A DNA stretch of 13,704 bases from Tetrahymena elliotti 4EA (lineage: Eukaryota > Ciliophora > Oligohymenophorea > Hymenostomatida > Tetrahymenidae): positions 1,229,147-1,242,850 of the forward strand of contig JH720310.1 in assembly GCA_000231825.2 (NCBI GenBank), written 5' to 3'. Below are positions 1 through 13,704 of this stretch, in pieces (the first letter of the stretch is position 1; the number at the start of each line of letters is the position of its first letter). The notes under the pieces were generated by a model, which was not told where the DNA came from, did no database searches, and saw only the letters and a program-made list of their open reading frames with translations. The position numbers and the translations under genes were made by a program.

Positions 1-3000
1 TTCTAAGGTAATAATAGATAATGAATGAATTAAAGTTATACAAAAATTAAATATAGAGGGTATTATTTTTTAATTAGTTTTCATTTGATTAAATTATTTT
101 TAAAGAAGGTTAGCTTTTTAATCAAAAAAAAAGGAAGAAATACTGGCAAAATTTTAATAAAATTTCTAAAAGAATGTAGCTTTATATTTTTTTCTAATAT
201 ATTAAATTAATTAATATGTAAAAATAAGAAATTTATAGTAGTTAATTCTTTATGAAATATGATTTAAAAATTAAACTTATTTCATCAATATTAAGAGAGT
301 AAATTTAGTCTAAGGCTTTTGAAAAATAAAAATAAATTTATTTTTTCTAACTTAAAAGATGGTAAATAATTTCTTTTAGAAATTCCTAGTTTTTTTATTA
401 ATTTTAATTAAAGGAAGTAAAATTCTTTTAGGAGATTTTAAACTATTAACCTTTATTGGATAGCGAGTACTTAACAAAAAATTAAAATATAAAATATTTG
501 ATAACTATTTACCTAAATAAGCCAGTAATAAATATTTTTTATCTGCATCCACCTTAAATTAACAATATTCTTTAAACAGAAAGTAGGATTTTAGAAATTT
601 TCTTGTTGACTTATCAAAAATTCAAATATTTTAATGATTAATTAGAATGTAAGATTTTAAAAACATATTTTTGGCTCAAATCTAATAAGAGGAAATTTTG
701 TTAAAAGGGAGTAAGATTTTATTGTTTATAAAAAGAAATAAAATATAATTTTTTTAAATTAAAAAAAAGATTGTAATTAAATTGAAGGCTGATAAAATAA
801 TTTAACTACAACTTTCAAATTAAAAAGATAGTAAAATTTTTTTTCGTCAAACCTTTCAAATCATAAAATAATTTTAATAATAGTGACATGTAGTTTTTTG
901 AACTAATTCTCTTTATTTTCAAGTAGTTTTGACCCAAAAAATTTAATCTAGGGAGTATTATTTGAAATATAACTATTTAAGAATTGATAATTCATTTTGA
1001 TAAAATCCAAAGCATGTAAATTTTAATTATTTTTGAATCAAATATTTATTAAATTTATTTTAAAATAAGGAAAAAGTAATTTCAATTCGCAATTTTTAAA
1101 TTACAGAATTTGATTTGGCTGAATAAAATAAATAAATAAAATTAGGATGTAAATTTTAATTTGCATTTACTTAAAAGATTCTAAAAATTTGGAAAAAATA
1201 ATATAGCATGTAATTATTGTATTGAAATAAATATAAAAATTAATAAACCTTGGAATATCATAATTAGAGGGTAGCTATTTAACTTTTCAATAGAGAAAAT
1301 AGATTTACTTTTATTGTTAAAAAGATAGTAAAATACTAATTTGTAATAATCTAATATGAAATTAAACAATTTAATTTTAATTTTTAAAAAGTGTGTAATG
1401 ACAATACTCAGTCTCAATTGGCAGATTAAATCTTCATTTATTTTTCTTTCTTATATATCACCAATAGCTAGTAAGTCTAATTTATTACTAATTTCATCCA
1501 AATAAGCTTATATTTTCATTCTAAATAGCAAGTATATATTTCATAAATATAAGATAAAACACTGTAAGAAATCTTTTTCCTAAAAAAAGCATGTAACATT
1601 TTTTAATTATTTAATAAAAAATATGCTTAACTTAATTTTTATCCTCTATAGCAAGTAACATCTCAATCTAATTTCATTTCACAAGGCTAGCTTTTAAATA
1701 TTTTATAAATAGACCTCAGTAATTAGATTTTGAAATATTTTTCCTAAAATAGTTATTAAATAAACTAAATTTAATATTCATAATAATAGTCCAGAGTAAT
1801 AATAATTTTTGAAAAAATAATTGATTAAAATGGACCTTAAAACTCTAAATAAATACCGCCACTAATTATTTATTCAAAATAGTTACAAGTAAAAAATATG
1901 TTTAAATATAATTTAATAACCAAGTTGATAAATATTAAATAAATTAACATATTAAAATAGGAAAATGTAATAGATATTATTCAAATATTTTTGTTGAGAG
2001 AACAAAAAAGAAGGAAATTGATAAACTAATTAAAATATAAAAACTAGAGTGTAATTCTTTAAAAAAATTGTTAAAATATTTCAACTAATTCAATCTAAAA
2101 TGTAGCACGTAATAGCTTAAAATAAATTGATTTACAAAAAGAAGAATTAATTATGGAAAATTAATAGATGGTATTTTTTTTAAATTTAAAGAATTTAATA
2201 ATGAGACATTTTTGTAATCTAAAAGCGAGTATTTTAAGTTCATAAGACATTTAAAATAGAAGCAAATTCTAAATAATTAGATAGTAAATTTTTCATTAAT
2301 TTGTAAAATTTAACCATAAATGACATTTTAAAAATGAAGTGAGTAGGATATTTTTAAAAGTTAGAATTTGAGTGAATAAATTACATTTATTTAATAAATA
2401 GACTGTAAAAAATTCTTCATTTTTTAAAAATCTGATGATAAATTTCAAAAAAAAGCCTGTAAGTTTCTTTGAAAAACTTTAGCAATATTAGAATACTTCT
2501 AATCGGTCAAATAGATGGTAAACATTATATTATATTTTCAAAAATTAATTTAATTTAAAAACAGCTAAATGATATATTTTAAAATCATTTCTTTTACCAT
2601 TAATCTATAAATCAATTAGAGTAAGGCGTTTATTTTATCAAAGTAAATCTCAGAATGCATCATTAAAAACATAAAAATAAATAGGATCAAGTATAAATAA
2701 CAAACATATTGAATAAATGTATTAAATTTAATGTTTTGATTAAAACAATAAGTTTGAGAGAGAGACATCATCATTCAGATTCAAGATAGAACACAATCAA
2801 TATTGAAGAAGGCCAGTACTATGAAACTGATGATGAATATTATTAAATAATCAATAAAGATATATTATTTTATGTGAAGAATAAAATTTATGTTTTATGT
2901 TGTGAAGTAAATTTTACAAACATAATTTTTTTTTCTTTTTTAAAACCTTTTTAAATATTCTTGTTAAATAAATATTAAAATAATTCTTATTTTTCTATAA

Positions 3001-3122: not shown

Positions 3123-3419
3123 AAAAAGTAAAAATTAATTTATAGAATATTTTCTATCTTATAAGATATCTAATTCAAGATAAACCAATTAGCGATAAAT
3201 ATTCTTTTTTTTAATATAGCTTTACTTTCGCACTTTATCAAGTTTCTTGGAAATTTTTAATAAAAAAAGTTAATGAATTTAAATTTCATAAAATTATTTT
3301 TTTTTTCTATCACCTTAACTTCGAGAACTGAGAACTGAAGGTATTTATACTTAAAAAAGTGAGTAATACACTTTTTTTATTGTCATTCTTCTTAGAATAA
3401 CATATCCTATATTTTTTGA
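3123..3419. other. A+T-rich spacer between the two array copies
   Basis: No coding region is recognised. It contains poly-T/poly-A tracts and a small direct repeat GAGAACTGAGAACTGA at about 3323-3338. An AG|TGA|GTAATA microexon-like site at 3360-3362 may be the 5'-most remnant of the second copy. Confidence 0.4.
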
Positions 3420-5500
3420 ACAGGAAGTAAAATTTTAGGGATTTCCTTATCTGTTCAGCAAAAAACTCAATTACATTGCTGTTAAAAAGAAATGAAATAT
3501 AGTTTCCTTAAATTAAAATACAAAGATTGTAATTAAATTGAAGCCTGATAAAAGAATTTAACTACTAATTTTAAATTAAAAAGAGAGTAAAATTATTTTT
3601 ATCAAATATTCCACAAAAGAAAATATATTTAAAAATAGCGACCTCAGGTAATTTTTTCAATTTATGCTTTTTATTTATTGATTTATGACCAATAAACTTT
3701 GTTACTTAAAATAAAGTAATATTTGAATTAATTATTTTAAAGAATTTTTAATTAATTTTGATAAAATCCTTAGCATGAAAATTTTAATTATCTTTTAATC
3801 AAATATTTATTGCATTTATTTTAAAAAAGAACAAGTGATTTCAATACAAAATGTTTAATATAAAGAATTGGTATGACACTAAAAATAAATAAAAATTATA
3901 AAGTAAATTTTAATCTAAATGTGAATAAAAGATTCTCTTAATTTTGAAAAAATAAAACTAATAATTAATTTTATTGAAATAAACATGAAGATTCATTAAA
4001 CTTTGCATATCTTAATTAGAGGGTAGCTATATAATTTTTGAACAGAAATAATTATTTACTGATATTTTTAAAAAGATAATAAATACTAATTGTTGAAAAT
4101 CTAATATTATTTTAAACAATTTATTTAAAATTTTTAAATAGCATGTAATTTTAAATACTGAAAAATTAAATCTTCATTTATTTATATTACCTATTGCAGT
4201 AAGTCTAATTTATTAATCATTTCATTCAAGTAAACTTATATTAATTCTAAATAGCAAGTAATTCCATAAAAATTTGATAAAACATTATTAACTAGTATTT
4301 TACTAAAAAAACATGTAACATTTTTAAACTATTTAATAACAAAAATATTAATTCAATTTCTAACTTTATAAAGAAGGTAAAACTTTAATCTACTTTATTT
4401 AGCATGAAAATGTTAGTTTTTAACTATTTTTTATTCTTCATAGACCACAGTAATTAAATTTTAAAAGATTTGATGACAAAATAGAAACTAAATTAGATTA
4501 TCAAAAAATAATAATTTTAGAAAAAATATTTGATAAGATAAGAAATTAATCACTATTAATTAATTATTCTAGATTGGGACAAGTAATTACAATCAGTCAA
4601 TAGATATTTTAATTATTAACAAATCTTATTAAAAACATTCAAACTAATTTTTAATATAAAATATGGGAAGTATTCGTTTAAAATATATTGATTTACAAAA
4701 GAAGAATGTAAAACATAATAAAAAATTAAGAGATAGTATTTTACTAAAATTTTAGAAATTAATTAATAATTATGAATTTTTGTAATTTAAACAGCAAGTA
4801 CTTTAAAATATCAGCAACATCCAAAATAAAAGCAAATTTGAAATAATTAGATTGTAAATATTTAATTAATGTGTAAAATTCAACCATAAATGGTATTTTA
4901 AAAATGAAGCGAGTAAAATACAATAAAAAAATTAAAACTAGAGTTAACTAACTACATTTACTTAATAAATAGACTGTAATTAATTTTACATCTTTTTCTT
5001 AGACTTATTATTTAATTTTCAAAAAAAAAGCTTTAAGTTTTTTTTTAAGAGCTTTAGTAATACTAAAAATGCTTCTAATCGGGAAATGAGTTGGTAAACA
5101 TTAAACTATATTTTCAACTATTGATTTTATTTTCTAACCAGCTAAATTATTTATTTTACAATAATTACTTTTACCATTTATTTTTAATCAATTAGAGTAA
5201 GACATTGATTTTATGAAAGTTAATCTCAGAATGCATCAATAAAAACATAAAGATAAATAGGATAGTATAAATGATATTATATTTATAGGTTACCTTATAT
5301 TTTTTGATGAAAAAATACCATCAATCAGTCAATCAGATTCAAATAAGACAGGATTCTATCAATATTGAAGAAGACAGATACTATGGAACTGATGAAGAAT
5401 ATTTTTAAATAATTAATAAAGATATATTATTTTATGTGAGGAATAATTATACTTTTTTATGTTGTGAAGTTAATTTTACAAACATAATTTTTTTCTATTA
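3420..5500 (+). pseudogene. Decaying second copy of the microexon-array gene tail
   Basis: This is a diverged duplicate of about 705-2935: many introns align, and landmark exons occur in the same order. Sites still intact: 3424-3426, 3526-3528, 3584-3586, 4020-4022, 4142-4144, 4255-4257, 4374-4376, 4444-4449, 4733-4735, 4795-4797, 4851-4853, 4910-4912, 4973-4975 and 5091-5093. About half of the counterparts are broken. At some the 3' AG is gone (for example near 3711, 3900, 4197, 4314); at others the 5' GT is gone (for example near 3777, 4078, 4407, 5033). One exon has become 10 nt (4573-4582) and another 4 nt (5261-5264). Exons matching 464-710 of the first copy appear deleted. Without the broken exons the frame cannot be restored simply, so I read this as a pseudogene. 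The last exon (about 5320-5490) is still open and similar. It could instead be a functional paralog with a different exon set. Confidence 0.6.
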
Positions 5501-7216: not shown

Positions 7217-8630
7217 ATGATTAAACAATAAATGGAAGAAGAGAAGCGTTAACTAAAATAAATCATTGACAAATTTGTGATTAATTATGGTGATGATGAA
7301 GAAATCTATGAGGATGATAATTACGATGAGTGTTTAGAGGATAACACAAAAGCTAAATAAATGATTGATGAGAATTGAGTTCTAGATGTAAATACTTTTG
7401 CTTGATAAAGAGAAAAAATAAATATTAAAGAAATATCTTTAAAAATATTCTCTTCTCTCAATAAGAGATCTTCTTAATAAATTGTCCCATACTTGTGGAT
7501 AACATTGCATCTATTAAATCAAACATACTAAATCTGCTGTTCTTCTCATATAATAAATATTGTTGTTCAAAGGGGAATATCAGCTCTTAGTAAAACTCTT
7601 TGGATTTAATATAAAAAATTAGATTACTATTTTAAAAGCTTAGAAGAAGCACAAAGAAATTAGAGTTTTTTTAAAAATTCAATAAAATATGTAGAAACTT
7701 TTTTTAAAGCCTTACTAGATAGATATTCAAACTTGTTGGAATGTTCCTTCTTGATGGTTAGTAGATGTCTAAAGCTCGAAAAATCTATAAATATTTGCTT
7801 TCAGTTGATGAAAAATTAGGAAAACAGTTTTCAATCTCTAATGAAGAGTGGAGCCTTTTGAGATTACTTGAAGAATCATTGTCACCATTTTATTAAGCTA
7901 TTAAATTTGTATCTATTTAATATTCTCCAGTTTTGCATTAAATTTTGCACATTTTCTACAGCTTAGATGAATAGATTTCAATACTTTAATAAAATCTTTA
8001 ATCTAATCAGATAATAAGAACTATGAAGTTCAATTTATTCCTTGTCTAAAATAAATGAAATTAAAACTTAATGAGTTTATTAGCATTAAAAAAGAACTAT
8101 ATGAACTATGTTCAATATTTGTGCCAGCAATTAAAAATTTACTCATAGATGAATCTCCCAATTCTTTAATAAACTATCATTGACTCAGTGAAATAGTTCT
8201 ATTTACCATCTATCTCAAAGAGTAAAAGTAAAATTAAATTAATAACAAAAATGATCTAAAAAAATCAATCATGAAATAAAATAGTATATTTTTATTCTAA
8301 TACTAAAGAAATAATTAAGTAGAATTAAATTATTCTGAATTAGAAGTAAATATAAGGATATTAACCCAATTACTTATTGGAAGTACTACTAATTAAACAA
8401 CTAAAATAGTTAACTAATAAAATTTGTTAAAGCTCAATCTACTTACAATTTAAATTTGTAGTGTTGCCAGTGAATTAATGTTTTCAGTTGGAAATAAGAG
8501 ACAAAAAATAAAGAGTAATACATTTTAATCTTTAATGTGCTTACATTCATGGAAATATAAATATAGAGTTAGTAAAGTGAAATTATTTTCTTTTTTGTAT
8601 TGGTTTGAAAAAAAATTGTTTATTCATTAA
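7217..8630 (+). pseudogene. hAT transposase pseudogene
   Basis: hAT transposases cut and paste DNA through an RNase H-like domain with a C-terminal dimerisation region. The reading frame starts at ATG 7217 (or 7232) with an acidic N-terminus, then meets TGA at 7376 and 7403. In the same frame CCSSHIINIVVQRGISAL (about 7535-7590) matches the hAT block usually written C-x-H-x-LNL-V. A second frame gives DIQTCWN (from 7722), like the family's T-R-W-N-S-T motif. A third (about 7770-8058) gives FSISNEEWSLLRLLEESLSP followed by FYQ, like the family's EEW...L...L.PF block. A fourth, from 8055, carries an ELYELCSIFVPAIKNLL stretch; 8357-8400 gives INPITYWKYY. Finally 8454-8557 gives CSVASELMFSVGNKRQ and LMCLHSW, the hAT dimerisation motif. 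At least two stops and several frameshifts show it is dead. TAA/TAG are used as Gln throughout, so it has long resided in this code. Confidence 0.72.
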
Positions 8631-8647
8631 AATTTAAAATATTTTTT

Positions 8648-8765
8648 GAGATAGTCTCAAGCTCACAGTAGTCTGAAACTTTTTAAGACTGATTTATTTT
8701 TTTTCACCTGGTTTTAAAATTTCTTAAAAAGACGGTCTTGAGATCAGACAGGCCTTCTGCAACAC
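8648..8765 (-). repeat. Right terminal inverted repeat of the hAT element
   Basis: Ends CTGCAACAC at 8757-8765, the complement of the left end with one mismatch. It contains the inverse of the left-end AATCAGTCTT at about 8683-8693 and a local GAGA-TAG-TCTC palindrome at about 8648-8658. The outer end is better defined than the inner one. Confidence 0.55.
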
Positions 8766-8970: not shown

Positions 8971-11900
8971 ATGATAGATTTGAATAATTTAGAGGAATCA
9001 GATAGCGCTGTGTCAAAGATAGCTAAGCACATTCGAAATAGATAAAAAATCAAACAAATCTATAAAGATAAGGGTATTTAGTTACTAAATAAGCCAGAAT
9101 AACAATGTATTTATCTATCAAAAATTCTTTTTTATGATGATTTCATTTTTAATTTAATTTCTTGAGAAATGGTTCTAAAAAATATAAAACTCTTCATTAT
9201 TTCTTATTTAAGTATCAGAAATTTAAGATCAAGAGCTTTAAGAAAACCCCTACACCCACTACAATAAAATGAAAAAGGAACTAGCTCAAAAAGGTTTTGA
9301 TGAATTTAGATATTTAGGATAGGGAGCATAAGGATTAGTTTTATTGGCTAAGAAATCATAGACAAACAAAAGATACGCAATTAAAGGAATTCGGTATAGA
9401 GATGATGATAACAATAAGATTTTCTAAGAAAATTTAGATAAAGTGAACAAAGAAATTGAAATTCTGTAGAAATGTAGAGGTTTTCCATACGTTGTAAACC
9501 TTTTAGAAGAATTTAAAGGAAAAGAATATATACACTTGGTTTTTAGTGAATGCTAGGGTAAGTGATTAATAAATATAATGGATTATTTAATTGCTTTAAT
9601 AATAGGAACTCTGAAAGATATTATTGAATAAACTTAAGAGAAAAAGCTAAATGAATTATCTGCAATAAAATACTCTAGAGATATAGCAGAAGGTCTTGAT
9701 TTCGTTCACTCAAATAGCTGCCTTGTCAATGATTTAAAAATGGATAATATTTTGATTGACTACAATGGAAATGCTGTTGTTTGTAAATAAAAGTTAAATG
9801 AAAGATATTTATTGTTTAACTGATTGTTGATAAAAATAGGTGATTTTGGATTGGGTGTTATTCTATAAAAGCAATCTGGATACTCTCTTGCTTAATATGT
9901 AGAATTGTTTTATAAATTAAATGATTTTATGGTTTCTTAAATTAATAAAGCAAGGAAACTGTTATTATTAAGCACCTGAATGCTATGGCCCTAACTCTTT
10001 TTAGAAAACTGATGACTTTGATGGCTATATTTCAGAATATAAAAAACTTAATGTTGATGTAAAATAAGAACCAAGTCAAAGAGTAGTTTATTTTTTAGAT
10101 TTATTTTTATTAAAATTGATTAATATTTTTAGAGTGAAGCTTTTTCATTAGGTATATTGTTTTTTTCTATTATTTTCCTTCTAAAATGAGCTTTTTATGC
10201 TAAATAAAAAGGATACATCATTTACACATTAATTTCTGGAGTGAACTTTAGTCTAATATTTAATAAGCACAAGCCAATCTAATATAAAGAAGAATTTTAG
10301 ACCTTTAAATATAAGAAATAACTTTAATTTATAATAGATGGATTAACCTAATTTGTTCCAAGATAAAGGTTACCGGTTAACGAGGCATTGAATATATTAA
10401 ATGAAATTTTTTCATAGGAATTTAACCTAGAAGAGAAGTTTATAGATTATATTGAGGACAATAATGGAGAGGCACACGAATTCTTAAATAATTTAAACAT
10501 GGAAATCTAGTTTGTTTAAGCTTTTTCCAATAGGTTTTATCCTATTATGTAAGCTTTATATTAACATCATAAAAATTTAATCTAAATATTTACAAGAAAA
10601 AATGAAGAGACACTCCTCTATGAAATTGAGAAAAACCAGATCTAACAGGGCTAAGCAAATATAAATTAAAAAAGAACAATTTGGGTTTATTAAATTAATA
10701 TTATATTAAAAGGATGTATAACTTGGATAAAAAAATCAGAATCCTTTCTAATCTGAAGAAGAACTACAACAGTTAAAGCTAAATTATAACAAACTAGAAA
10801 CTGAATTGAAAGAAAAACTCAATCTAATTCAAAATATTTAATCTTAAAATTTTAGTTAAGAAAAATAGATTAAACAACAAAAAGAAATAATAGCAGACTT
10901 GAACCAACAAAATTCTTAATTAAAATAGGAATTTGAGAGACAAAAGGAGAATTTAGAAAAATTATAAAATGAACTAAAAGATAAGAAAACTCAAAACCAA
11001 AATTTATAATTTGTTAACAATTATTAAGAATAGTAGATTTAGAAGTAGGAGGAACAAAAAGACTAATTGAAATTACAAAATTTCTTACAACAACAATAAT
11101 TTAATGAAAAAGAGCAAAAATTGCAAAGAGAATTGCAAGAAAAGCTTAATTAAATTCAAAAGTTTGCATCTTTGAATTATAGTTAAGAAAAATAGATTAA
11201 ACAACTGGAAGAGATAATAGCAGAATTGAAAAAAAAAAATTCTTAATAAAAATAGGAATTAGAGATACAAAAGGAGAATCTTAAGGAATTATAAAATAAA
11301 CTATAATATAAGGAAACTCAAAATCAAGATTTATAATCTATTAATGTTAATTAAAAACAGTAAATTAAGCAGTAGGAGGCACAAAAATACTAATTGGAAT
11401 AACAAAATTTCTTACAACAACAAGAATTTGATAATAAAGAGCGAAATTTGCAAATCGAATTGCAATATTAAATTCAAAATTTTTAATTTTAGAAATAAAG
11501 TTAAGAAAAATAGATTAAACAACAAGAAGAGACAATAGCAGAAATGAACCAAAAAAATTCCAAATTATCCAACGAAATTTAGGAAAATCAGAAAAAAATA
11601 CACAACTTATTGAATGAAAATCAAAATTTATAACTTACCATTTAATAAAAATAATAAAATATTATTAATTAGGAGAAATTCATAGAAGAATAAAGTTAAA
11701 CAAATTACCAAATGAAAGAAACAATTGAAGAATAAAGTGCAAAAAATGAATATTTTGAAATGCTAAATAAATTGAGGTATTAATAGATTAAAAAAAATAG
11801 ATGGAAATATTTTGAAAATTAAGAAAGAATTATAATATTTAATATTAATTTTTTAAATAATTAGATTGTAATATTATGAATTTAAAGGACCAAATATAAT

Positions 11901-13704
11901 TAATCTTCTGTATTACTTTTAGCCAGTAATTTTTCTTAATGAAAAAATAAAATAAAATAAAATTTAATTTAATTTATTTTAACATTAAGGAAAAAATTGA
12001 AGTAATAGAAATTATTTTTTAGATATTGATATTTAGAAAACTACCTTAAAAAAAAGAATGTAAAATTATTATTTATTATACCGTATTCCCTTACTTGATA
12101 GAGCTGAGAAACGTCTCCCTTCAAAAATAGAAATATACAATTTAAATTAAAAAAATATTTTGAATGATTCATTGATTTAAAAAGCAATAAATCGGAATTA
12201 TGGTAATCAAAGAAGTGAATATTTAATTTATTTATAAATTAACAGAGGGTAAATTTATTTCTTTTCTTTTAGCAAAATATTTATTTTTTTAATAAGAACG
12301 TAATAAATATTAAATTGAAGATTCAATAGCATAAAAACATAAAATTAAGAATGTATTTTAAAATATTATGGATTCATAAATTTAAACTAATACATTTCTT
12401 ATTACCAAAAAACTCAAAATAGAAAAAAGTAAATTTAACAGATCTTTTGAAAAGATAATTTCAACAGAAGTGATAAAAATTATAAATAGAGAGTAATTTA
12501 TTAATTAGTGTTATTTTAAACATTTGATTTTATTATCAAATAGAATGTAAGAATAATTTTGAATATAATTTATGATTGGTCACAATAATATTCATTATTT
12601 CATTTCAGTGTGTAATTCAAATTTTTAAAAATTTGATATTAAAAAATAAAAAGGTATAGGTATTTTTTTTAAAGTAACCCTTTTATGTATATTTTAGAAA
12701 AACTAGAGTTCTAAATTCAAATAAAAATTAATTTACTTTAATTACTTTAAAAAATATATCTGTATTGATTTAATCAACTTTTTAATACAAAATAAGCAAT
12801 TGGTTGATATTTTTGAATCATATTCAGAAATAGCTTATTAATTAATTTACTTTCTAATTCTAAGGTAAATGATATTTTTGAGAGTTTGCTTTTAGATCAG
12901 AAGAAGATATTGAATCAATTTGTATATTCTAAAACAGCTAGTAATTAATATTTTTTAACAATTTGCATGAAAAATATTATTTATTCATTAACTTTCATAA
13001 AGGTAAATGATATTTTGAGAGTTTGCTTTTTGATTAAAAGAAGATATTGAATCAACTTTTTTATTCGAAAAATAGCAAGTAATTAATATTTTTAAATAAT
13101 TTGTATGAAAAATATTATTAATTAATTATCTTTCATATTCTAAGGTAAATGATATTTTTGAGATTTTTACTATTTGTTCAGAAGAAGATATTGAATCAAC
13201 TTTTTTATTCCAAAAATAGAGAGTAATTAATATTTTTGAATGATTAACATGAAAAGTTTATTAATTAACTTTCATATTCTAAGGTAAATAATATTTTTGA
13301 GAGTTTTGCTATTTGTTCAGAAGAAGATATTAAATCAACTTTTTTATTCCGAAAATAGATCGTAATAAATATTTTTGAATGATTTGTATGAAAATATTAT
13401 TAATTAATTAATTAACTTTTATATTCTAAGGTAAATGATATTTTGATAGTTTTGCTATTTGATAATAAGAAGATATTGAATCAACTTTTTTATTTCAAAT
13501 ATAGACTGTAATTAATATTTTTGAATGATTTGTATGAAAATATTATTAATTAATTAACTTTTATATTCTAAGGTAAATGATATTTTTGAGAGTTTTACTA
13601 TTTGATTAAAAAAAGATATTAAATCAACTTTTTTATTCCAAAAATAGTGGGTAATTAATATTTTTGAATGATTTGCATGAAATATTATTTATCAATTAAC
13701 TTTT
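8971..13704 (+). CDS. Protein kinase with Gln-rich coiled coil, continuing into a microexon array (3' end outside window)
   Basis: Exons: 8971-9106, 9213-9557, 9606-9782, 9840-9898, 9951-10082, 10133-10151, 10212-10684, 10713-11776, then microexons. TAA/TAG are read as Gln. Kinase domain (about residues 76-345): glycine loop GQGAQGLV (81-88), ATP lysine in YAIKG (Lys103), helix-C Glu126, catalytic loop VNDLKMDN (201-208) with Asp203, Lys205 and Asn208 kept but His-Arg of HRD replaced by Val-Asn, DFG (221-223), APE (247-249), and SLGYIIYTLISG across the 10152-10211 intron. Thus catalysis seems possible, in a non-RD kinase. Residues about 455-801 are a coiled coil with three repeats of about 107 residues. 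Introns are 48-106 nt except a 28-nt one (10685-10712). Reading straight through from 11777 would stop at TGA 11877-11879. Splicing at AG|GTATTA (11777) to exon 11865-11867 instead continues in phase 2 with FQKKLKIGTIKKEI, a coil-like sequence. The substrate is unknown. Confidence 0.75.
10133..10151 (+). other. 19-nt internal kinase exon
   Basis: This exon encodes Ser-Glu-Ala-Phe-Ser-Leu plus the first base of Gly. Together with the next exon it forms the kinase helix-F motif (SLGYIIYTLISG). It is needed because reading on from 10152 gives TGA at 10187-10189, while a 60-nt GT...AG intron (10152-10211) restores the expected motif in frame. It shows that small exons occur in the conserved domain too. 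Confidence 0.7.
10685..10712 (+). other. 28-nt candidate intron
   Basis: GTTTAT...AAAAG, 28 nt, phase 0. No other GT exists in the preceding 100 nt. Removing it joins the kinase C-tail frame to the coiled-coil frame exactly; without it the frame runs into TGA near 10755. It is about half the length of its neighbours, so either the splicing machinery accepts Paramecium-size introns here or this is a frame-breaking change. Confidence 0.5.
10854..11776 (+). repeat. Three tandem coiled-coil repeats of about 107 residues
   Basis: The block SQEKQIKQ starts at 10854, 11181 and 11499 (spacing 327 and 318 bp). Within each unit the order recurs: SQEKQIKQ, EI(I/T)A(D/E)(L/M), KQE.E.QKENL, NFLQQQ.F and a Q/L-rich link. 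The third unit is incomplete and more diverged. Many Gln codons are TAA or TAG. The repeats are visible at DNA level and look recent, so the coil length is probably variable. Confidence 0.75.
11865..13704 (+). other. Microexon array of the kinase gene
   Basis: AG|exon|GTAA-type sites at 11865-11867, 11923-11925, 11990-12001 (12 nt), 12057-12059, 12246-12248, 12297-12299, 12350-12352, 12423-12428, 12490-12492, 12544-12546, 12609-12611, 12654-12659 (uncertain), 12797-12802, 12938-12940, 13076-13078, 13220-13222, 13359-13361, 13505-13507 and 13648-13650. All are multiples of 3, and the coiled-coil exon ends in phase 2 at 11776, so one frame is kept. Two gaps are long (12060-12245 and 12660-12796) and may hide exons. 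A candidate 18-nt exon at 12185-12202 would create TGA and was left out. The array continues past the right edge. Confidence 0.6.
12861..13704 (+). repeat. Tandem repeat of about 140 bp, one microexon per unit
   Basis: Six units start at AAG|GTAAAT with GT at 12865, 13003, 13145, 13284, 13431 and 13573 (spacing 138-147 bp). Each has a GATATTTTTGAGAG-like block, then AAGAAGATATTGAATCAAC, then AAATAG, a triplet, GTAATTAATATTTTT, a TATGAAAATATTATT block, and TTCTAAG. The flanking intron sequence is nearly identical, but the triplet differs in every unit: CTA, CAA, AGA, ATC, ACT, TGG. A degenerate forerunner lies at about 12797-12864. The window's first bases (TTCTAAGGTAATAA) match the unit junction, which hints that the first gene has similar units upstream. 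Confidence 0.85.

Follow-up and report, generated by a model that had tools for sequence, protein, structure and literature searches.

Schistosome micro-exon genes (MEGs) contain many small symmetrical exons that lie in frame; these exons are tens of bases long, and the genes are animal genes encoding secreted proteins. Small exons also make up the bicycle genes of aphids, in which they are larger than 3 nt. The bicycle genes encode putative insect effectors; in them, tiny internal exons follow one another in large numbers, almost always in phase 2, and the megacycle gene carries more than 100 microexons in one gene, according to the available part of the account (PMC9168663). Their layout is the closest to that of the locus reported here, which likewise has many consecutive small exons in a single phase but in which the exons are mostly exactly 3 nt long and lie behind a ciliate kinase.

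In plants, 1-nt exons have been validated in APC11 and VPS55, and exons of 1-15 nt are spliced and often unannotated (PMC8831610). Plant microexons thus resemble the present ones in that a tiny size is workable, whereas in the available sections of that paper they occur singly or in pairs and not in runs of dozens. The LRR genes of Tetrahymena, likely the same genus, have tandem 90-bp exons and phase-2 introns and therefore share fixed-length tandem exon units and one intron phase with the locus described here. In the available part of the LRR account, however, each exon is a 90-bp protein repeat unit, while here an exon measures only 3 nt and no triplet is related to another. No report of arrays of 3-nt exons, or of any arrays so dense, was found in the open-access literature, outside which most subscription papers lie. 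At 3 nt, exons come close to the minimum size for splicing, and with 40-80 of them per tail and many copies, the splicing of exons smaller than the spliceosome footprint would become open to direct test in a ciliate genus amenable to culture and transformation.

Microexon array A and its kinase context

The window, meaning the whole stretch of DNA analyzed (13,704 nt; C18:1229147-1242850), is flanked on both sides by runs of N. It opens inside microexon array A (57..2517, plus strand), which starts before the window, where there is a run of N. Forty exons are predicted in array A, each preceded by AG and followed by GT in a base-by-base check, with sizes of 3 nt (n = 33), 6 nt (n = 6), and 9 nt (n = 1). 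The preliminary description had proposed 41 candidate exons, mostly of 3 nt and a few of 6 nt; the array is real, and the count is corrected to 40. The first 20 exons start at 57, 106, 173, 229 (9 nt), 296, 359, 414, 464, 522, 580, 646, 708, 770, 828, 884 (6 nt), 952, 1013, 1070 (6 nt), 1146, and 1207, and are 3 nt long where no size is given; those at 106 and 173 were positioned by eye on an alignment of A with copy C. The second 20, again of 3 nt unless marked, start at 1268, 1325, 1392, 1468, 1529, 1590, 1652, 1713 (6 nt), 1790 (6 nt), 1883 (6 nt), 1961 (6 nt), 2048, 2106, 2168, 2226, 2281, 2340, 2402, 2456, and 2515. Introns had been given as mostly 46-87 nt; the 40 introns measure 46-102 nt, with 31 of them at 51-64 nt.

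Spliced array A in frame 1 reads GRINLQEWNDQKMELYDMDMKKIIGYVYNIKPHPDYKKIVTCEYELL-stop, the tail ending in ...CEYELL-TGA, and its microexons are parts of two codons (phase 2), not entire codons. The stop codon is divided as TG|A by a predicted last intron of 102 nt (2518..2619, plus strand); copies A, B, and C all have its acceptor, ATTAG|A at 2615-2620. Six further family members have TGA at the same tail position. Another acceptor for the end of this intron, ACAG near 2564, was rejected as it is missing in copy C. The last exon previously placed at 2753 was also rejected, because the last acceptor is at 2619 and reading stops at the conserved, intron-split TGA upstream of 2753. Region 2783-2937, which is 85% identical to 5345-5499, has open frames downstream of the conserved stop and is taken as putative 3' UTR.

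Gene 2 of the window has a kinase domain in ordinary exons (8971..10200, approximate, plus strand; Pfam Pkinase, E 3.7e-12 and 2.4e-9 in two exons). This is followed by a long glutamine-rich open frame (10392..11876, plus strand; 495 aa in code 6, with internal 327-nt repeats), which is coiled-coil-like by eye and had no Pfam match. The first microexons of the gene 2 tail then form array E (11865..13650, plus strand), a chain of mostly 3-nt exons that continues to the window end. Past the run of N beyond array E, the same units continue in copy C, which has an end like that of A. Gene 1, upstream of the window, shows the same order as gene 2, then a run of N, and then array A. We infer that the gene 1 parts on both sides of N belong together and that kinase and array are on one transcript. 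Judged by position, array A forms the 3' portion of a kinase gene, made up of kinase, coiled coil, and microexon tail, instead of standing as a separate gene. The earlier view of the array as a gene made of microexons is kept for its apparently coding microexons, and changed in that these would form the tail of a larger gene.

A kinase on C40 is paralogous to gene 2, and its best named homologs are Tetrahymena thermophila kinases with at most 65% identity. Taken with kinase frames that read TAA and TAG as glutamine and with GGGGTT repeats at contig ends, this suggests the somatic genome of a Tetrahymena species other than T. thermophila. Arrays on C17, C24, and C40 are likewise downstream of a kinase. 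Genes 1 and 2, C17, C40, and others have a Pkinase match ahead of the array in the same orientation, unlike the arrays on C33, C35, C1, and C16; for C33 and C35, no upstream kinase was found among the matches listed. The catalytic stretch of the kinase family has 39 genome matches at E <=1e-5, thus representing an expanded family, and an array occurs within ~10 kb downstream on the same strand in 12 of the 39, C10 included. Fourteen matches on C1-C39 (C10 included) have no strict triple, that is, three strict motif units in a row, nearby among the sites listed, a pattern which also misses array A. At the C10 kinase locus, a weak chain of six 3-nt exons (score 35) precedes a run of N; at C17:760k, there is no chain before the run of N. 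As runs of N follow, neither locus can be counted as array-free.

Array B (3310..5260, plus strand) aligns to A as a partial duplicate with broken splice sites, in which the chain model identified scattered microexons only. At 29 sites aligned with A, array B retains AG at 18 and GT at 23 (alignment slips are possible), whereas copy C retains AG at 32 and GT at 33 of 36 aligned sites, most misses being alignment slips by eye. Array B is predicted to be a decayed copy, a pseudogene, and offers a natural control for relaxed selection. Between array B and the gene 2 kinase, 8184-8741 contains remains of a hAT-type transposase (Pfam Dimer_Tnp_hAT, E 2e-4, 8184-8738), and the nearby stretch 7372-8055 (region 7372-8058) had no Pfam match.

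Sister arrays and chance expectation

Microexon arrays like A are present in many copies in the genome, which was searched over 90 Mb in 134 contigs. The motif density had been thought to exceed chance, and the counts bear this out: TAG-N3-GTAA occurs 342 times in sense and 9 times in antisense orientation in 46 arrays (39.6 kb), where first-order Markov sequences predict 3.4. In the same 46 arrays, TAG-N6-GTAA occurs 15 times (3.5 expected), and TAG-N4-GTAA and TAG-N5-GTAA do not occur; since arrays were chosen by N3 density, the spacer-length count is unbiased only for spacers other than 3. Genome-wide, there were 148 cases of three strict units in a row and none for the reversed pattern, which is an undercount given that the strict pattern has no matches in array A itself. 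The strict-triple sites listed lie on at least 13 contigs. A match on C4 (L011), which is without a TAGNNNGTAA site, was dropped, as was a TAAG repeat stretch in C18 that is a simple repeat.

A splice-chain model with a flat exon-length prior (2-30 nt) was applied to the fetched genome parts and returned 20 chains with 802 exons, the splice-site model having been trained on these same arrays, themselves chosen by motif. Exons of 3 nt made up 629 of the 802 and exons of 6 nt another 84; 762 were multiples of three and 40 were not. Consecutive small symmetrical internal exons, by which MEG and bicycle genes are recognized, are thus found here as well. The flat-prior model found no chains on the antisense strand of the fetched parts. 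A prior restricted to multiples of three gave 24 chains. The longest chain, C17:141842-147330, has 79 introns, and 72 of its 78 exons are 3 nt, followed by chains on C23 (63 of 72 exons) and C40 (55 of 66).

Exons have a G+C content of 36% compared with ~18% around them. The G+C content within array A is 16-20%, and short motifs do recur in such DNA, so a chance or low-complexity pattern of A+T-rich sequence might be suspected. With the hundredfold excess of the N3 motif over expectation, its near absence from the antisense strand, the empty N4 and N5 classes, the lack of reversed triples, and the absence of antisense chains, this explanation has a negligible probability. Tests of exon length, strand, frame, and synonymy nevertheless carry more weight than the counts, since the arrays were found with the motif under test.

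Coding signal and the predicted tail

Kinase frames read TAA and TAG through as glutamine, and TGA is the only stop of the code. Among exons of up to 12 nt in the window family, TGA accounts for 6 of 739 codons in frame 1 (phase 2), each at a conserved place as the last or last-but-one codon of its chain, compared with 40 of 769 in frame 0 and 28 of 739 in frame 2. Two more frame-1 TGA codons were dropped; they fall within or on the boundary of modelled exons 39 and 42 nt long. A second group of arrays (C1, C5, C16, and C24:1003000) has no TGA among 167 codons in frame 0, versus 5 of 160 and 7 of 160 in the other frames. Chain C3:1102198-1103819 was omitted from both phase groups, and its frame 1 is also stop-free. 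The test is independent of the splice-chain model, as the model ignores exon content. Phase 0 was rejected for the window family because TGA would be frequent as an exon (22 of 484 in all arrays, in addition to the frame 0 count above). Pooling all arrays mixed the two phase groups and muddied the frame test, which was therefore redone by group.

Substitutions between paralogs point to the same frame. In six disjoint paralog pairs, the synonymous share is 21 of 68 in frame 1, 8 of 82 in frame 0, and 10 of 74 in frame 2 (Fisher p 0.001 and 0.010 for frame 1 against the others, which are frames of the same data). In one disjoint pair, C24-C40, this excess is lacking: frames 1, 0, and 2 give 3 of 19, 6 of 22, and 3 of 19, respectively. 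A wider set comprised 30 of 66 paralog pairs, namely those that exceeded 40 exon-order shuffles in an exon-by-exon alignment ignoring frame, and gave 80 of 267, 39 of 326, and 39 of 291 for frames 1, 0, and 2, respectively, the pairs not being independent. Exon identity in the aligned pairs is 76%, versus 45-61% for the flanking intron beyond the splice motifs, a contrast weaker than it appears because the alignment maximizes exon identity. Copies A and C differ at one intron-split codon, CAA in the former and TAG in the latter, which both mean glutamine only under the ciliate code. Stretches such as IG.VSLING and NCEYELF recur in several spliced tails of separate contigs, with just one column invariant across ten. 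Judged from sequence, the array exons look coding and the encoded peptide appears to be under selection. Consecutive 3-nt exons between introns, as originally proposed, thus gain computational support from splice motifs, the stop-free frame, and the synonymous excess.

Six tail peptides had no Pfam matches; solved structures did not identify the tail, with two phage-fibre rows at E 0.5; and one tail searched against a set of 5.8 billion proteins gave nothing at E <=10 among 6 candidates. The peptides EYEL, NCEY, SLING, EYDF, DELF, and GYVYN were absent from all 24 Tetrahymena homologs (23 T. thermophila and one T. malaccensis) fetched of 32 named kinase hits. The annotated T. thermophila kinase models, several of which are marked partial, run past the coiled coil into terminal stretches which by impression resemble intron read-through. 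One T. thermophila RNA-seq study mapped its reads with a microexon option, and the available part of the paper has no other mention of microexons (PMC3274533). Either the tail has been systematically missed in the annotation of homologs or it is not made. If the former is true, published models of a large kinase family may lack C-termini.

The second possibility could mean that the array is skipped, with the kinase/coiled-coil exon joined to the terminal exon or the transcript ending earlier, and that the microexons are remnants. The 24 homologs without a tail fit such skipping, as does copy B, which shows that arrays can decay. Remnants would not retain both a frame free of stops and an excess of synonymous changes specific to that frame, which makes this reading very unlikely.

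Splicing of the array and turnover of its units

The 837 array introns have a median length of 61 nt and mean splice scores of 4.83/4.38. The eight ordinary kinase introns compared with them, from the same genes, range from 48 to 113 nt, with donor scores of 4.6-6.2 and acceptor scores of 4.1-5.2 apart from one of 1.7. Two of these in gene 2 served as controls, with splice scores within the array-intron range (9558..9605, 48 nt, and 9783..9839, 57 nt and located before DFG; both plus strand). In motif and length, the array introns resemble the ordinary GT-AG introns of the same genes. Microexons avoid starting with GT or ending in AG (GTA 1 versus 14.7 expected, TAG 0 versus 4.1, and CAG 2 versus 7.2), as expected if selection acts against stray splice sites.

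Ciliates remove internal DNA segments, and the ~60-bp spacers could accordingly be germline-limited segments that are removed from DNA and not from RNA. GGGGTT telomere repeats were found at an end of at least 19 contigs, including the array-bearing C3 and C40, with C18 absent among the contigs listed. Since C3 and C40 end in telomere repeats, the spacers are present in somatic chromosomes, and absence from the somatic genome, which characterizes internal eliminated sequences, was not seen for the spacers of these two contigs. The spacers are also bounded by GTAA...TAG in the same way as ordinary introns of the same genes. Elimination at the DNA level is thus highly improbable.

We consider it very probable that the array forms the coding 3' end of a protein-kinase gene whose tail is written in codon-length exons, the ~60-nt introns between them likely being removed in succession by the ordinary spliceosome. 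These introns, of a length that fits intron definition, would be recognized across the intron and removed singly, as a 3-nt exon is too short for two spliceosomes at once. Short ciliate introns agree with intron definition in the available part of a comparative study (PMC5014332). Each splicing step would add 3 bases to the growing upstream exon and expose the next 5' splice site. The resulting tail would follow the kinase domain and the coiled-coil-like stretch and end in ...CEYELL/F-TGA; our guess is that it acts as a short binding or targeting segment.

Removing 40-80 consecutive introns would presumably be slow and costly, which suggests that the array might act as a splicing timer that delays or gates kinase expression, the tail itself being secondary. 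Conservation of the peptide between loci points to the tail itself, and such a timer appears improbable. A less remote alternative is that the microexons are real but mostly optional, with variable in-frame skipping giving many tail isoforms. Nearly all exons are multiples of three and each family has one phase, so most skips would keep the frame. The would-be full-length peptides are, however, partly conserved between loci, which suggests that the full tail matters, and mostly optional microexons are possible but less likely than regular inclusion.

Beyond the predicted kinase tail, we tentatively propose a genome-wide architecture, though with rather more doubt than confidence: ends of whole protein families would be written in codon-length exons, a single gene having as many as 70 or more of these 3-nt exons, all in one phase, and introns would be copied or homogenized between units independently of the triplets. 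If true, single codons of a tail could be altered, duplication of units could lengthen it, and any subset of codons could be dropped in frame, and the spliceosome would be a codon-level assembler of protein.

The turnover of array units was compared in tandem repeats of ~142 nt (12865..13704, plus strand; TRF and unit alignment), each containing one 3-nt exon and one AG|GTAAA. In a comparison of 11 such units from arrays E and C, identity is 26% for the triplets and 87% for the rest of the unit, and the triplet has the highest three-column entropy in the unit (5.23 versus a maximum of 3.57 in 136 other windows). In two of the 11 units, the GT after the triplet is lost, as seen by eye. Exactly one AG|GTAAA occurs in each interval between successive microexons (9 of 9), 59-69 nt in. 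Such a site would divide the interval into two introns of normal length and is possibly a zero-length (recursive) splice step. Units of ~142 nt also occur in the upstream part of copy C on C18, beyond the window.

Over all chains, triplet identity is 0.25-0.35 at any flank identity. Flanks at least 80% alike were found in 33 unit pairs, on C17 and C23 only, where triplet identity is 25 of 99, about the level of unrelated pairs. Near-identical introns thus lie beside unrelated triplets, and introns therefore seem to be copied or homogenized independently of codons. Introners are mobile introns, and as with these, near-identical introns occupy several sites next to unrelated exon sequence; unlike introners, the copies adjoin at 3-nt steps within one gene. 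The units may have arisen either by introner-like spread of introns between existing codons or by unit duplication, after which the triplets diverge or selection keeps them different. No contiguous unsplit tail was found in the genome itself with two tails as queries and no positive control. The arrays would offer a system where the spread of introns is uncoupled from codon evolution.

The second group of arrays, of phase 0, lies at C1:454-456k, C5:903k, C16:851-854k, and C24:1006-1009k. The C1 and C16 arrays are preceded by a frame in which CxxC and CxxCH-like motifs were noted by eye, and the one on C24 follows a kinase-like frame (Pfam E 6e-6, below the cut-off).
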